Virus record (IMG/VR): IMGVR_UViG_3300031787_000364
Span: 1 to 37,719 of that record
Source: a virus
Length of the DNA: 37,719 nt
Direction: 5' to 3' (one strand)
The position numbers were made by a program, and so were the translations under genes. The notes beneath the pieces were generated by a model, which had not been told where the DNA came from, did no database searches, and was given only the letters and a program-made list of their open reading frames with translations. Below, piece by piece: positions 13,778-34,232 of this stretch; positions within the stretch are counted from its first letter, which is position 1; each line of letters starts with the position of its first letter.

Positions 13778-16700
13778 CTATTCTGGGGATGGTTCCTTGA
13801 GGCCGCGGCGTTTTCCGAGTGGCGTGAGCGACTGGCCGGAAGCTCTGAGTTCACGCATGAACTGCATCTTCCCGATGCGAAGTCCGCCTTCGTAGGCTTT
13901 GTCCAGCATGTCGATCTTTCGGTCGTCTCCGCCCTGCTGGTACGCCCCGCTCATGTAGACCCGCTCTGCGAGTGTGCGGCGGTTCTTCCCGACGAGTTCC
14001 GAGAATCGGTCGTACTGCTCCGGGGTCATGTCCTCGTAGGTCACGCCACCGAAAGTCATCTTTGGATTCGGGAGCGAAGGGATCGACTTGTTCTCTGCGG
14101 TCCTGCGCCAGACTTCGTAGATCGAAGTGTTGAGTTGGTCGGGTTCGATGGAGCGGCTCTTCCAGGCATCGAAGAAGTTCCAGAGATACGGGTTCTCGCC
14201 CTTGGGTGTCTGCTCGACGATATCACCCCACAGATCCCTGCGGGCTGGCATCTTGTTGGGATCCTTGGTGCCGGGGATCTTGAGTCCCAGCGCGGCGTAC
14301 CGCTGGTTCATTTCAGCGATTGCATCCTTGATGAACCCTTCTCCGTCGATAGCCGGAACCGTTGGGCGTTGAGCGCGGCGTAGTGCGGCAAACGTGTTGG
14401 GAGCCAGCGGCGATGCGGCGGTGACGGTGAGGCTCTTGAGCCAGCGATCAACAGCATTGCCGGACTCTTCGGACAGCAGCTTGATGAAGTCTCTGGTGCC
14501 CTTCAGGAACTGCTGCTCCATGACGAAGTTGATGCCGCTCAAGACTCCACCCTTCGCTATCGCGAGATAGTCTGGATCTCCTTCCCGGCTTCGTTCTTGG
14601 ATGCGCTTCGCAGAGGACACCATGATGGCCAACGCGCCAGCAGTCCCAAGAGCGGTCAGATCCTTCACTTCGTCACCTGACTTGAACTTGGGATCCTTGC
14701 CGGAAATCAATCGAAGTGAACCGGAGACATTGAAAGTTCCCGGAGGCTGAACTCCACCTGACTTGGCGAGTTCTCGGGCCTTCGAGGTTTCCCCTGGCGT
14801 ATCGAGGTTTGGAGCGATGACACCCTTGTTGGTCAGGTAATCAAAAGCCGCCATCATCATGCCGCCGACAACAAGCCTTGCGACCGCAGTGTTCTGGTCT
14901 CGTGGACTCAGCTTCCTCCAGTTGCGAAGGACTCCCGCAGGAGTGAATGAAAGAGCCTCTCCAGCGACGTTGATCGGAGTCTTCTGGAAGAGCGACAAGA
15001 GCCGGTATGGGATGTACCCGTAAGAGCCGGCCTTATCCCTGATGAAACGGTTTACCCCAGCAACAGCTTCAGTTGCCACGTTCTCCTGCTGGTACACAGA
15101 TCTGGCGGACTCGCGCTCGATGACTCCAAGATCGTCTTCGGTGAACCCCTTGGAACCTCTTGCCGCAGCCTCGTCGGTGATCAGGTAAAGCTCAGGCTTT
15201 CGGATGGCCACCTTCACCTGTGCGTCGTTCAGTCCGCGTTGCTTTCCAAGCTCGGACACAATCCTGGCCCGCTCGGCAGCGCGGAACGGAACATCGGTTG
15301 CTTGGGTCAACCGAAGGATGATGTCCGGCAAGACACCCACAGTTGCCTCGTACAGGTTGCGCGGGATTTGCGCCTTTTCGTAATCGCCAGCGAGCGCATC
15401 AACGATGTTCTTCCAAGCCCTCTGGAAGTTTAGCGGATTGCCAACATCTGTTCCGATTTCATACGGCATCGCCTCGGAACCCTTGAGCAAGATCTTCGCA
15501 GCATTTGGCAGCGAATTGCCGAACGCCTTTACCCGTTCAACGGTTCTGGACTGGATGTTGTATGTGTTGTTCTTGTTGCTGGATCGGACTCCATCCAGCA
15601 GTGAAGAAAGGATATCAGAGCTTTCCCTCAATGGCAGGTTGATCGTGTTGCCGAGGATGTTCCTGACGATGGAAAGCGGACCCATCACGGCACCCTGAAC
15701 GGTTGCAAGGTACAGGTCCGCAGCAGAAGACGGGTTGACCCTTGCGATGGCGCGATTCATCTCCACTTCGGACTCGTTCTTCAGCGCATCCGCAACCTTG
15801 GCCAACCCTTCGGAGATCTTGATGCGAGTCGGATCTCCTGACTCAGCCGCCTCTTTGAGTCTTCGGTCGGCGTTGTTGACGATCTCGGTGGACTTGTTGA
15901 GCCGATCCATCAACCGCGCAATCTCGGTTGCCTGTTCCGGCGTCATGGGCTTCTTGCCGGATTCTGCGAGGGACTGGGTAACGAGGCGAACGAGTCCCTC
16001 TGGGGTGGACGAGTTGAGTAGCTTGAACTGGTTGATGAGTTGGCCCCAGGTCGTTCCGCTCTTCGCCATTGCAAGAGCGGTTTGTGTGGCTCCTCCCATG
16101 TCGCCTGCGGAGATCTGCCGATTGAACTTCTCCATCGACGAAGCGACGCGGGTGTTCGACTTCGCGTTCGCGATGTCGGATTCGATCTGGGCGTCCGTCA
16201 TGGTGGAAGCCTGACGCACCACAGACTCCACGTTCTGCGGCTTGTACTGGGCCTCTGGTGAGACTGCGACGGCTTCCCGGATCACGGGTGGAACTCCGGG
16301 AGCGGCAGCAGTCCTTGCGGCGAACCTGCGAGGCTCCATGCCGGGTTCCGGCTTGATGGTCGAGGGTTTGAGGATCGTGGATCCGAGTTGCCGCGTGAAC
16401 TCGGTCTCGTCGAACTTGTCCTTGAAGTTCTCCTTGGCGTACCGGAGTCCTGCCTCGATGGCGTCGGCCACAGATCCGCCTGCCCTGATCAGGTTCTGCG
16501 CGACAACGATGGCTCCGTTCCAAGCGGTGCCCATGAGTTGCGGGAACGGGTTTGCGCCGAGGCCCGCTTCGACTTTCACGCGAGCAGACTCAAGCGACTC
16601 AGCGATCTCCTTCGCCCTCTTTGAGAACCGCTTCTTGGTGGGCGCAGCCTCTGGTTGCACCGGAGCCTCTGGTGCGGGTTCTGGCTGAACTGGAGGAGCC

Positions 16701-18199
16701 TCTGGTGCGGGTTCTCCTCCACCTTGCAGCGCCCTCTCCTTCGCGAGTTCTGCCGCTTCCCGGATGATGAGGCTTTCGCCAGCAGCTTGGCCGACAGGTT
16801 CGCGGCCAACACCAAGCGACTTCTCGATCATCCGCCTGCTGACGGTCGCCGGATCCAGAACCTCGGTTCCAGATTCAAGCTGCTCTGCGATGCGCGAAGC
16901 GGTCCTCTGACGCATCTGCTGCGCGAGGATGTCGTCGATGGATCTGAGCGGAGTGGATTCCCTCGGTGCTTCAACGACGGGTTCCTCGAAGACAGGCTCC
17001 ACTCGTTGAGCGAGCATTTGCTCTGCTGTCTTGAGAGTAGATGGGGCCTCCTCCGTTGGGATTCTCGAAGGGGTTGTTTCCCGCGGGCCTTCTCCAATCT
17101 GCTCGGGAGTGATGATCTCGCGCTCTTGAGCCTTCAGCTTCTCAATCGCGGGTTGCTCTCCGGTCTGGATCTTCTGCTGCGCTTCCTTGAGCGCCGTGTC
17201 CACAAGCGCCCTGGTTTCCGCCAGCGACTCCTCGAATCGCAACTGCTGGTCGGAGATCGGCGCGGTCTTCTCTTTCGGAAGCGTCGCTTCAAGAGCGTCA
17301 AGCTCGACCCTGGCCCGCTCCAGATTCTCCAACCCTTTCTCGATTCCAACCTTCTTGTCGGCCAGTGCTTCGATGGACTTGATGTACTCGGAGGCTCCCT
17401 TCGATCCGCCCTCTTTGAGTCCGGCTCCAACGAGTGAAGCCATCAGTACCGACACAGCAGCCTCGGTAGCAGCGCGGGTCTTGTCTTCTGGAGTCGAGTC
17501 CTTGTCGAGGAACACGTCGGTTGCTCGGGCTGTAGACTGAGCTACACCGGAGACCGCTTGCGGAGTGAATGCCGCTGCGATTCCTAGTTCTGCACCCCTA
17601 CTCAACCGCGCTGCGTTTGCTGCTGCGGCGACATCCGCTGCCGTTACGGCTTCACCAATGCGGGCCAGTGTTGCTGGAAGCCTCGCGGCTTGGCGACCGG
17701 CACCGAGAGTTCCAAGCGTTGCGACGTTCAGCGGGGTGAGAAGGTCAGCGGCAACTTGGCCAACCACTCCACCGGCAGCCGCCGTCTTCGGACCAACTAC
17801 ACCACCGATTGACTCGCCGATTTGCTTGCCGGTCTCGCGATCTTCAGGCGAAGCGGTAAGCAGCGCCATGAGTCCCTCGCGATCCAAGCGAGAAGCCTCT
17901 GGCAGCATCTGCGGCTTCGGCTCCGGTTCGAGGGCCTGACGAACTGACCGGGTTACGGTCTGGATGTCTGAAACAGAAGGCGCACCTACAAGTGGGGTGG
18001 CCACCCTTGCGAAGGATGGCAACACATCCATTGCGCGTTCAACGAGCGTAGGAGCAGCGCCAATCGTTGGAGCTTCAGGATGCTTGGATCTTCCGATGGC
18101 AGCGAATGCTTTTGAAACGTCATCTTGAGACGGAGGATTCTCTCCCTCCATCTTGATTGCCATCCCGGTTGATTTCTGAGTTACCTTGTAGATTGGCAT
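13778..18199 (-). CDS. Large internal virion (ejection) protein (1473 aa)
   Basis: The start MPIYKVTQKSTGMAIKMEG followed by a PSQDDVSKAF segment is a common opening of large podovirus internal proteins (MPIYxVxxPxGxxxxxEG). Residues 110-270 hold Ala/Gly-rich hydrophobic stretches (GGVVGQVAADLLTPL). Residues 280-520 are charged coiled coil and a Pro/Ala/Glu linker. A block with GTAWNGAIVVAQNLIRAGG and ADAIEAGLRYAKENF appears near 560, which I know from other phage virion proteins. The remainder is mostly helical. No lysozyme or transglycosylase motif is recognisable. It probably leaves the capsid with the DNA and forms part of the conduit through the cell envelope. Last of three adjacent ejection-type genes. 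Confidence 0.7.
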   Translation of the reverse strand: MPIYKVTQKSTGMAIKMEGENPPSQDDVSKAFAAIGRSKHPEAPTIGAAPTLVERAMDVLPSFARVATPLVGAPSVSDIQTVTRSVRQALEPEPKPQMLPEASRLDREGLMALLTASPEDRETGKQIGESIGGVVGPKTAAAGGVVGQVAADLLTPLNVATLGTLGAGRQAARLPATLARIGEAVTAADVAAAANAARLSRGAELGIAAAFTPQAVSGVAQSTARATDVFLDKDSTPEDKTRAATEAAVSVLMASLVGAGLKEGGSKGASEYIKSIEALADKKVGIEKGLENLERARVELDALEATLPKEKTAPISDQQLRFEESLAETRALVDTALKEAQQKIQTGEQPAIEKLKAQEREIITPEQIGEGPRETTPSRIPTEEAPSTLKTAEQMLAQRVEPVFEEPVVEAPRESTPLRSIDDILAQQMRQRTASRIAEQLESGTEVLDPATVSRRMIEKSLGVGREPVGQAAGESLIIREAAELAKERALQGGGEPAPEAPPVQPEPAPEAPVQPEAAPTKKRFSKRAKEIAESLESARVKVEAGLGANPFPQLMGTAWNGAIVVAQNLIRAGGSVADAIEAGLRYAKENFKDKFDETEFTRQLGSTILKPSTIKPEPGMEPRRFAARTAAAPGVPPVIREAVAVSPEAQYKPQNVESVVRQASTMTDAQIESDIANAKSNTRVASSMEKFNRQISAGDMGGATQTALAMAKSGTTWGQLINQFKLLNSSTPEGLVRLVTQSLAESGKKPMTPEQATEIARLMDRLNKSTEIVNNADRRLKEAAESGDPTRIKISEGLAKVADALKNESEVEMNRAIARVNPSSAADLYLATVQGAVMGPLSIVRNILGNTINLPLRESSDILSSLLDGVRSSNKNNTYNIQSRTVERVKAFGNSLPNAAKILLKGSEAMPYEIGTDVGNPLNFQRAWKNIVDALAGDYEKAQIPRNLYEATVGVLPDIILRLTQATDVPFRAAERARIVSELGKQRGLNDAQVKVAIRKPELYLITDEAAARGSKGFTEDDLGVIERESARSVYQQENVATEAVAGVNRFIRDKAGSYGYIPYRLLSLFQKTPINVAGEALSFTPAGVLRNWRKLSPRDQNTAVARLVVGGMMMAAFDYLTNKGVIAPNLDTPGETSKARELAKSGGVQPPGTFNVSGSLRLISGKDPKFKSGDEVKDLTALGTAGALAIMVSSAKRIQERSREGDPDYLAIAKGGVLSGINFVMEQQFLKGTRDFIKLLSEESGNAVDRWLKSLTVTAASPLAPNTFAALRRAQRPTVPAIDGEGFIKDAIAEMNQRYAALGLKIPGTKDPNKMPARRDLWGDIVEQTPKGENPYLWNFFDAWKSRSIEPDQLNTSIYEVWRRTAENKSIPSLPNPKMTFGGVTYEDMTPEQYDRFSELVGKNRRTLAERVYMSGAYQQGGDDRKIDMLDKAYEGGLRIGKMQFMRELRASGQSLTPLGKRRGLKEPSPE

Positions 18200-31364: not shown

Positions 31365-31688
31365 CTAGTTGAGCGTCTCAGAATCCGGGTCGGTATCCTG
31401 ATCCGAAATTGATTCAGCGTTGGCCATCACCTCGATGACCTTCACCAAACTGGACTGACCCATGGCGAAACCACAGGAATACTGCAACTGGTTTTTGTCC
31501 GTGATGGCCGATGCGTTCTGCATCAGTACGGTGTTGAGCAGCACCTCTTTGAATCGCTTTCCGGTCTCCGCTTTCAGGAACGATTCGAGGACCTCGGCAT
31601 CACGCTTTGACCATGAGCCTTGGTGGACCCACTTCTGGTGGCGGCTGAACTGCCAAGCAGCGCGGATGCGGTCGATGAATCCGATCAT
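31365..31688 (-). CDS. Small helical protein of unknown function (107 aa)
   Basis: It begins MIGFIDRIRAAWQFSRHQKW and is mostly helical (AEVLESFLKAETGKRFKEVL, YSCGFAMGQSSLVKVIEVM) with an acidic end (QDTDPDSETLN). The start overlaps the 52-aa gene stop (ATGA). It belongs to the string of small genes between portal and scaffold, which often encode assembly helpers. No motif recognised. Confidence 0.65.
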   Translation of the reverse strand: MIGFIDRIRAAWQFSRHQKWVHQGSWSKRDAEVLESFLKAETGKRFKEVLLNTVLMQNASAITDKNQLQYSCGFAMGQSSLVKVIEVMANAESISDQDTDPDSETLN

Positions 31689-31843
31689 CCCTTGGCCTTC
31701 TTTCGACCCGCAACGGAGCGTCGGACGAACTCCTTGGCACCGAGTTTCTTGCGACCGATGTATGCCGCGAGAGCCTTGGGATCATCTGCGCCCTCCTTCT
31801 TGAGTTGGCCAGCCAGCTTATCGAACTTCGATTGCTTCTTCAT
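31685..31843 (-). CDS. Tiny basic protein of unknown function (52 aa)
   Basis: The frame from ATG 31843 reads MKKQSKFDKLAGQLKKEGAD, then ALAAYIGRKKLGAKEFVRRS and a Lys-rich end. It fills the gap exactly, starting 4 nt after the upstream stop and overlapping the next start by 4 nt (ATGA), a strong sign that it is real. The shape (KFDKLAxxLxKEGxxDPxALAAYIGRKKxGxKxF) is one I recognise from small phage proteins next to portal or capsid genes, without known function. Confidence 0.75.
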   Translation of the reverse strand: MKKQSKFDKLAGQLKKEGADDPKALAAYIGRKKLGAKEFVRRSVAGRKKAKG

Positions 31844-31847
31844 AAAG

Positions 31848-32093
31848 TCACCATGCTTTGCAGGACCAGTGCCTCGGCGTCGTCTTGTCCGTTGCCGTGT
31901 CGCAGTTGTGTCTGGCGCGGAAGTTCTTCCGGCGCTCCGGGTTGTCGCGCTTAATCTCCATGTTGGGGTCTCCGAAGCGCACCTTGATCACGGTGCCCTT
32001 TGGGTTCCTCACATAGACAGCACTCTTCTTCTTCTCGCCGGGAGTGTAGAAGGGCTTGTTAAGGGTTACCTGCTTGCCTTGGTACTCCGCCAT
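31848..32093 (-). CDS. Conserved phage protein with DPNMEIKRDNPERR motif (81 aa)
   Basis: I start at ATG 32093 (MAEYQGKQVTLNKPFYTPGE). The protein has a beta-type first half and then the very conserved string DPNMEIKRDNPERRKNFRAR with HNCDTATDKTTPRHWSCKAW. This motif is frequent in phage genomes next to portal or capsid genes; the conserved Cys and His could bind zinc. Its function is unknown to me, but a structural or protease-adjacent role has been suggested by position. Basic and small. Confidence 0.8.
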   Translation of the reverse strand: MAEYQGKQVTLNKPFYTPGEKKKSAVYVRNPKGTVIKVRFGDPNMEIKRDNPERRKNFRARHNCDTATDKTTPRHWSCKAW

Positions 32094-32343
32094 GGGATGC
32101 CTGTTTAGATGGGATTGGCCTGTTGGAAACAATCGAAGCAGTAGGTCTCACCGGACTCGGAGAGGGCGGTTTGATTGACGGTGAAGGCGTCTCCACAACG
32201 CTTGCAGGTTTCAAGCCAGCCGCTTTGAACTCCCCACACCAGTCCTGCGGATTGACTGACGCAAAGCAGCTTGGCCTCCCGCTCGGTGGATACCTGTGGC
32301 AGTGTCCAGAATTGTGGAATTGGCATTGTGGACAGGTGTTCAT
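32059..32343 (-). CDS. Small zinc-ribbon-like protein (94 aa)
   Basis: The ATG at 32343 overlaps the portal stop (ATGA). The first 40 residues contain CPQCQFHNSGHCHRYPPSG and DWCGEF, the conserved pattern of a small phage zinc-binding family (CxxCxF...CHRxPP...DWCGEF). After residue 42 the frame becomes Ser/Pro-rich low complexity and runs past the start of the next gene by 35 nt. A second reading frame in the same segment shows another Cys set (see 32105-32239), so the true protein may end differently. Zinc binding is inferred from the Cys/His pattern. Confidence 0.65.
   Translation of the reverse strand: MNTCPQCQFHNSGHCHRYPPSGRPSCFASVNPQDWCGEFKAAGLKPASVVETPSPSIKPPSPSPVRPTASIVSNRPIPSKQASHGGVPRQAGNP
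32105..32239 (-). CDS. Overlapping frame with a second zinc-ribbon pattern (44 aa if started at GTG)
   Basis: In the -1 frame relative to the 94-aa gene, bases 32105-32239 read as a GTG-initiated peptide with WLETCKRCGDAFTVNQ and GETYCFDCFQQ, a CxxC...CxxC ribbon. An AGGA lies 4 nt upstream of the GTG. The frame ends at 32105, just 12 nt before the start at 32093, whereas the 94-aa frame overlaps that gene. Either this is a separate overlapping gene, or a frameshift joins the two Cys halves into one protein. No canonical slippery heptamer is present. Confidence 0.45.
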   Translation of the reverse strand: MWGVQSGWLETCKRCGDAFTVNQTALSESGETYCFDCFQQANPI

Positions 32344-34217
32344 GCTACGGGAGGCGCGGGTTGCTGCGGGATCTGTTGCTGTTGTTGGGACGGGAGCAGG
32401 CCAGAAGCCTCAAGGAACTTCTGGATCTCCTTGCGGAGCTTGCGGGCCTCGTTGGTGGAGACCTGCTCGTAGCCTTGCAGGAGCGAGTCGATTCGACCCA
32501 TGAACGCCTGCTGTGCGGCGGGCGTGAACTGCTGCCCCTGTTGGATCGCGCCGTTGAGGTACTGCATCAGGACACCGATGCGTCCGGCGAAGTTCTGACC
32601 GGGCTTGGCCGGCACCGGGATGCCGACGAGCAGCGTGGGGATGGTCTTGGACTCGTCCTCCAGTTCATCTTGGGCCTTCTGACCCGGATCCCGCAGCAGT
32701 CGCTTGATCAGGCTCGGGTCGTCCAGTTCCATGATCGACTTGTCCAGTTCAACCTGGTCAACCCACGCCGAGTTCATGAACAACTGCTTCCGACTGATCG
32801 CCTGCTGGATCATCATCTGGCGGCTCACCATGTCCATGCCGCCCTTGGGTTCCAACTCGTACTGGTCGTGGAGGGCCACGGGATCGGCATCGAGTGAGTC
32901 CTCGGCGAATCGGTAGCGCAAGCTCTTCGAGTCGTACTGGATGTAGAGGCTCCACGCCTGTCGGTAGAGCTTGCCGAGTGCCATGCGGAACAGCCGTGCC
33001 CGCAGGTCACCGGACTGCATGGACTGCGCGTTGATCGACTGGATCTCGGTGGCCGTGCGCCGGTCGCTGCCGCCGGACATCGCGGTGGACATGGCGTAGT
33101 CCGGGGATCCTATCCGGTTCTCGGCGATGGACCGGGTGGACATCATCTCTTGGTCGAAGGAGATCGGCGGCTGCGGCATGGTGACCGGGGCCACGCCGTA
33201 GGGAAGGATCTGACCGGGTTGGAACCGCAGGTTGATCGAGTTGGGGATCTCGCGCTCGGCCCGGAACAGCGGGCGGTTGTAGAGCGTCATGGCGTCGTGC
33301 TTGTGGTTCCACATCGACGTGAGGCTCAGCTCGAACGGCGCGAGGATCTCGCAAACGCCTCGGGGCGAGAACCAACCCTTGTCCTTGATTTCGTAGGGGA
33401 AATCGACGAACGGAGCCTGCCCATGGTCGTAGGGCAGTTCCATGGGATCGCGGAGGTCGAGGTCCACGGCAGCGGGCGAGTAGGTGTAGACCTCCCACTT
33501 GCCGTCGTCGCGCTTGCGGTAGACCTCCCACACGATCACGCCGTCGGTGTTGGTGGTGTAGGTGATGCCCTCGCGAAGCTGTTTGGCCGACGATTCGAGG
33601 CTGGTGCCGGGGATGTTGTCGTCGTTGGGGTTGCCGCGGATGCGCTCGATGGTCTTGGAGTCGGATTTCCATCCGTACTGCCGGGCCATGCGTCGGTAGG
33701 CGGCGATGGACATGGGCATGACCTGCACCATCCAGTCGGCGTCCTGAAGATCGACGGTGTAGGCCGGGACCAAGAAGTACAGGGGGTCGATGGCCTCGAA
33801 CCCGACACGTTTGTCGCCGGGGTTCCAGAAGCACTTGAGGACGCCGCGACCGCTCATGAGGGTGTAGTCCACCCAAGACAAGACTTCGTCGGTGAAGTTG
33901 GTCTTCTCGCGGATTTTATAGTTGAACCAGTCCTCGGCGACCTTGGTGTAGGCGTTCAACTGCTGTCGCATGGGTACGAAGGTGGCGACAACGTCCATTC
34001 CGAGCGCCTGCTGCAAAAACAGCGGTTTCAGCTTCTCGATTGCCGTGTCAATCAGGGGCCAGTGCAGGTCGGCTGCCTTGAGCCACGGCTTGTTCTGCCG
34101 GCGCAGGCCATGATGACGCAGTTCGTACCAGCGTGTCTGACGGGTTTCCCAAGGCTGCCGCTGATCAACGGCATCCTCGATCTGACCCTGCAAATTCTGC
34201 CTCTGTTTGTCCGTCAT
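32340..34217 (-). CDS. Portal protein, P22-like (625 aa)
   Basis: Size and motifs fit podoviral portals of P22-like type: an N-terminal helical stretch (QRQPWETRQTRWYELRHHGL, then PWLKAADLHWPLIDTAIEKL), a middle with GVLKCFWNPGDKRVGFEAID, the APFVDFPYEIKDKGWFSPRG region and a late helical part ending in Gln-rich tail (QQQQIPQQPAPP). The portal is the dodecameric ring through which DNA enters and leaves the head. Two adjacent ATGs exist (34220 and 34217). I take the second because the AGGAGG site is better spaced (5 nt). It is preceded by the large terminase and followed by the zinc-ribbon gene with ATGA overlap. Confidence 0.9.
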   Translation of the reverse strand: MTDKQRQNLQGQIEDAVDQRQPWETRQTRWYELRHHGLRRQNKPWLKAADLHWPLIDTAIEKLKPLFLQQALGMDVVATFVPMRQQLNAYTKVAEDWFNYKIREKTNFTDEVLSWVDYTLMSGRGVLKCFWNPGDKRVGFEAIDPLYFLVPAYTVDLQDADWMVQVMPMSIAAYRRMARQYGWKSDSKTIERIRGNPNDDNIPGTSLESSAKQLREGITYTTNTDGVIVWEVYRKRDDGKWEVYTYSPAAVDLDLRDPMELPYDHGQAPFVDFPYEIKDKGWFSPRGVCEILAPFELSLTSMWNHKHDAMTLYNRPLFRAEREIPNSINLRFQPGQILPYGVAPVTMPQPPISFDQEMMSTRSIAENRIGSPDYAMSTAMSGGSDRRTATEIQSINAQSMQSGDLRARLFRMALGKLYRQAWSLYIQYDSKSLRYRFAEDSLDADPVALHDQYELEPKGGMDMVSRQMMIQQAISRKQLFMNSAWVDQVELDKSIMELDDPSLIKRLLRDPGQKAQDELEDESKTIPTLLVGIPVPAKPGQNFAGRIGVLMQYLNGAIQQGQQFTPAAQQAFMGRIDSLLQGYEQVSTNEARKLRKEIQKFLEASGLLPSQQQQQIPQQPAPPVA

Positions 34218-34232
34218 CATTTCCTCCTAGCG

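Follow-up and report, generated by a model that had tools for sequence, protein, structure and literature searches.

Viruses are known to use two frames of one stretch for overlapping genes on the same strand (compare the review PMC8227390). Two frames are also used in programmed -1 frameshifting of the dnaX type, in which an internal SD can stimulate the shift (PMC5009743). The phage locus described here resembles the viral overlapping genes in that one frame is widespread and the other is restricted to a clade, and it resembles dnaX in having an internal SD-like sequence together with a second frame in -1; unlike dnaX, however, it has neither a slippery heptamer nor a conserved stimulatory structure. 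Our analysis favours, with reasonable though far from complete confidence, two overlapping small genes on the same strand (gene 1 and gene 2), the second being started separately. Two features would set this pair apart from the viral overlapping genes: most of gene 2 lies opposite an unselected gene 1 tail, leaving only a short stretch that is truly double-coding (~4 to 14 codons, according to which start is used), and gene 2 seems to have arrived as foreign DNA rather than by overprinting of a conserved tail. Overlapping small phage genes are already known; what is new here is another member, with an odd start.

The DNA analysed (the window) is an IMG/VR virus record, a phage contig of 37,719 bases, whose minus strand carries the terminase, portal and major head protein genes as well as the two small frames described below. 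Gene 1, the frame 0 open reading frame of 94 amino acids (32059..32343), follows the portal protein gene (SU10_portal type, 32340..34220), and its ATG overlaps the portal stop. Alignments place its conserved core, CxxC...CHRYPP...DWCGEF, at 32227..32343; the frame 0 tail after DWCGEF occupies 32059..32226. An open -1 frame spans 32105-32326, ending in a TAA (32105-32107), 11 nt before the ATG at 32093 that opens the next gene (MAEYQGK..., phrog_7595, 31848..32093, stop at 31848); the same 11 nt are found in the relative L002. Gene 2, read from the favoured CTG to this TAA, would encode 54 amino acids (32105..32269), with GTG 32239 as an alternative start and ATG 32326 as the start of the longest possible product. 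Its putative zinc-finger module, C..C...C..C (CKRCG...YCFDC), lies at 32129..32206 and is recognised by its Cys pattern. An earlier, sequence-only reading had pointed to two Cys-rich frames on one strand at this place (CPQC...CHRYPP...DWCGEF in frame 0 and CKRCG...YCFDC in -1), to a neat -1 stop ahead of the next gene and to the lack of a standard slippery site, and all of these observations are borne out. The location between the portal and capsid genes invites the guess of a role in head assembly. Elsewhere on the minus strand, an open reading frame of 1473 amino acids (13778-18199) has no PHROG match at E 0.1.

A portal scan gave 249 relatives, 80 of which were kept for comparison, and the set of contigs with both small frames (clade A) was completed by IMG/VR scans with each small frame and with the Cys pattern. 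Besides the window, clade A consists of 13 contigs (L002-L009, L018, L082, L085, L093 and L096) and can be divided into three lineages: the window type, L005 and the L004 group. The frame offset is the same in the window and all 13 contigs, which come from ~12 metagenomes, and in every aligned member 20 nt separate GAGTTC from the TGC that comes first in the second module. The -1 Cys pattern is kept in 13/13 of the relatives found in IMG/VR.

The other 71 kept portal relatives (clade B) all contain gene 1 (71/71), as do distant phages. In the 68 clade B contigs that are uncut, DWCGEF is followed by an in-frame tail of 61-68 amino acids that is unrelated to the tail in clade A, and in the 40 contigs where a pattern search located the next ATG, this tail stops 1 nt short of it. 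A second C..C...C..C pattern after DWCGEF occurs in 0/71 clade B relatives in any frame, three of the 71 being cut by the contig end. The gene 1 family of distant phages (CxxC...C[KR]R[YF]P...QDWCGEF) carries different tails or terminates shortly after WCGEF (L117, L157 and L165), and its members lack the second module as a part of their own. Since relatives outside the clade are without the second module, that module is not integral to the family of the first protein. The earlier reading had named homologues that end after DWCGEF and lack the second module as evidence against its proposal; such homologues do exist outside the close clade, but within it the module is always present. In two distantly related phages (L117 and L129), a separate Cys-rich frame lies directly after, or overlaps the end of, the WCGEF gene. 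At the sensitivity used, neither IMG/VR nor a GTDB set with one genome for each species yielded gene 2 homologues outside the clade, a tblastn search of phage records gave only weak matches to the gene 1 half, and a scan of genomes with gene 1 gave no match. In distant homologues of gene 1, the N-terminal Cys part matches phrog_15838, a family of unknown function (E 1e-6 for the L157 protein), whereas gene 1 of the window has no match and its close relative reaches only E 0.13.

Selection differs on the two sides of DWCGEF. Before it, the substitutions between L005 and L004 number 0, 1 and 8 at the three codon positions of frame 0, the pattern that a coding frame 0 predicts. After it, pN/pS, computed from proportions and across three lineages only, takes pairwise values of 0.38, 0.59 and 0.53 in the -1 frame, while the same three lineage pairs give 1.43, 0.90 and 1.15 in frame 0 (0.9-1.4 for the tail). 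Past DWCGEF, purifying selection acts on the -1 frame only. This comparison of both frames across relatives had been proposed by the earlier reading, and its view that both halves are of a conserved type also holds, as each Cys module is kept in the window and its 13 relatives and the -1 frame is under purifying selection. Length differences among the lineages preserve the -1 frame, the conserved positions of gene 2 include Cys, CGD, LS, ET and CF, and the -1 stop precedes the ATG of the next gene by 5 or 11 nt in each of the nine contigs examined for this.

The frame 0 stop, by comparison, lies inside the next gene, by 35 nt in the window lineage and by 188 nt in the L004 and L005 types. When the -1 protein is recoded synonymously, frame 0 also stays open in 57-87% of cases, so the open frame by itself means little. 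With an unconstrained frame, a stop inside the next gene and an unremarkable openness, the low-complexity tail is thus an overrun without detectable selection: the sequence noticed earlier is real, but it carries no constraint in pN/pS. Translation of the tail would simply reflect the chance lack of a frame 0 stop. Standard gene callers could call the unselected frame 0 open reading frame of 94-147 amino acids and skip the selected one. The frame 0 tail (32059-32226 in the window, 3156-3458 in L004) has no selected stop, and gene callers would be misled by its 188-nt overrun into the next gene in the L004 group. The second protein looks genuine and is easily overlooked, having no ordinary start codon and being missing from most relatives.

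Within the favoured arrangement of two overlapping genes, gene 1 would encode a short CxxC...C[HR]R[YF]PP...WCGEF protein whose family is present in many phages. In clade A, the part after DWCGEF is wholly unlike that of the other portal relatives, its -1 frame encoding a second, treble-clef-like C..C...C..C protein. Gene 2 would be initiated inside gene 1 by a strong GGGAGG, most likely at CTG 32269 and alternatively at GTG 32239. The -1 start codons on offer are these two and an ATG or GTG at 32326, which has no ribosome site. The SD-like GGGAGG (32275..32280) lies 5 nt before CTG 32269 and pairs with the anti-SD at -9.6 kcal/mol (-10.3 in the L004 type, and -7.4 in L003); it is conserved across the lineages, with GGGAGA in L003. 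The SD energies of 21 presumed gene starts in the window range from -9.5 to +1.3, and 0/121 -1-frame NTG codons in 12 window genes match the SD strength of the CTG site. None of the start sites tested in the window is as strong as GGGAGG combined with this CTG. GTG 32239 has a weak CAGGA that is too close, and no ATG, GTG or TTG stands at good spacing from GGGAGG. CTG starts are rare and usually weak. This weakness counts against a start at CTG 32269, as does the low confidence of residues 1-16 in the predicted model.

The codons of the start site are partly set by gene 1 itself. In clade B the Arg codon in the GGGAGG site is likewise AGG or AGA, and TGG-TGY always gives GTG; GGGAGG with CTG is thus a good candidate but not proof. 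Across the three lineages, synonymous change over 32227-32280 is seen in 1/15 codons compared to ~31% in the flanking genes. With so few lineages, this low rate is suggestive of double coding, which it would fit, with recombination as an alternative, and no independent constraint is clearly seen in the -1 frame from CTG to GTG. Should the CTG prove to be the start, the locus would give phages another case in which a strong ribosome site is coupled to a poor start codon.

The two CxxC knuckles of gene 2 are invariant in all lineages, and the protein resembles small zinc fingers of the LIM/treble-clef type in its C..C...C..C spacing and in the predicted order of strand, strand and helix. It differs from them in scoring below Pfam cut-offs (16.9 bits against a cut-off of 22.9 for the LIM profile, other zinc families also falling below theirs), in being about half the size of a LIM domain, and in its low-confidence model. 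A profile built from the alignment finds its best PDB match in a LIM protein (E 8e-5). AlphaFold2 gave a poor model, with a mean pLDDT of 58, that predicts strand-strand-helix from residue 19. Judged by its Cys spacing and its weak profile matches, gene 2 would encode a treble-clef or LIM-like finger, and the cysteine patterns suggest that both proteins may bind zinc.

The earlier reading had left a choice between two overlapping genes and a -1 fusion. Two coding frames are indeed present, but the fusion is left without a heptamer, a conserved RNA fold or a fused homologue. A single fused protein, in which a non-canonical -1 frameshift near DWCGEF joins the two Cys modules with possible help from the internal GGGAGG, is therefore unlikely. 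The modules are conserved in the same order, and all three lineages have an unchanged run of ~22 nt spanning the end of the shared part; yet X_XXY_YYZ heptamers are missing from all frames of the window, L005 and L004, and the downstream RNA folds differ among these lineages (z-scores of -0.78, 0.99 and -1.97). Gene 1 of clade B runs to 1 nt before the next gene, and a fused product in clade A would end there too, but an IMG/VR pattern scan for in-frame fused homologues returned only clade A plus unrelated or separate-gene cases. SD-assisted -1 frameshifting does exist in bacteria (dnaX, PMC5009743); here, however, GGGAGG is too far upstream for any shift that retains DWCGEF, and a shift at the usual distance would lose this invariant motif. 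A more specific version, in which an SD-driven -1 shift joins the modules with no heptamer or downstream structure and the C-terminal module is swapped there between phages as an allelic cassette, has only a small probability.

Gene 2 could also be genuine and begin at the ATG or GTG at 32326 (offset 17), giving a far longer overlap. Every lineage has such a codon at this offset, in an open frame, but the codon is dictated by the CxxC sequence of gene 1, it has no SD, the probability that the frame is open there by chance is 0.43-0.46, and the upstream L005/L004 substitutions (0, 1, 8) track frame 0 only, which makes such a start very improbable. We give equally little credence to a fossil or chance frame that is unexpressed: the family matches are below curated cut-offs and gene 2 is known from sequence alone, but purifying selection in -1 and the conserved Cys, CGD, LS, ET and CF positions speak against it. 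An indel from assembly or sequencing, splitting what would be a single in-frame gene, had also been raised; beyond the two-frame appearance itself nothing further was found in its favour, and the identical offset in three diverged lineages makes it very hard to believe. Sequencing error was rejected, as the offset is the same in 14 contigs.

L005 and L004 are mostly 95-100% identical over 3.3 kb, except for ~120 nt over the specific part of gene 2 (L005:3352-3470 versus L004:3156-3270), where 60-nt bins drop to 66% and 51%. The edges of the divergent stretch fall in the conserved core of gene 1 and where the next gene begins; one edge comes directly after GGGGAGTTCA, with differences at offsets 118, 121 and 122. 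Judging from this identity profile, the second module looks to have been swapped as an allele within the reading frame of gene 1. Such a cassette swap would show that small genes are replaceable inside the reading frame of a neighbour. Between the window lineage and L004/L005, identity also dips to 63-68% amid 80-90% at 600-780 nt downstream of the gene 1 start (~31560-31740), which is possibly a second exchanged stretch.
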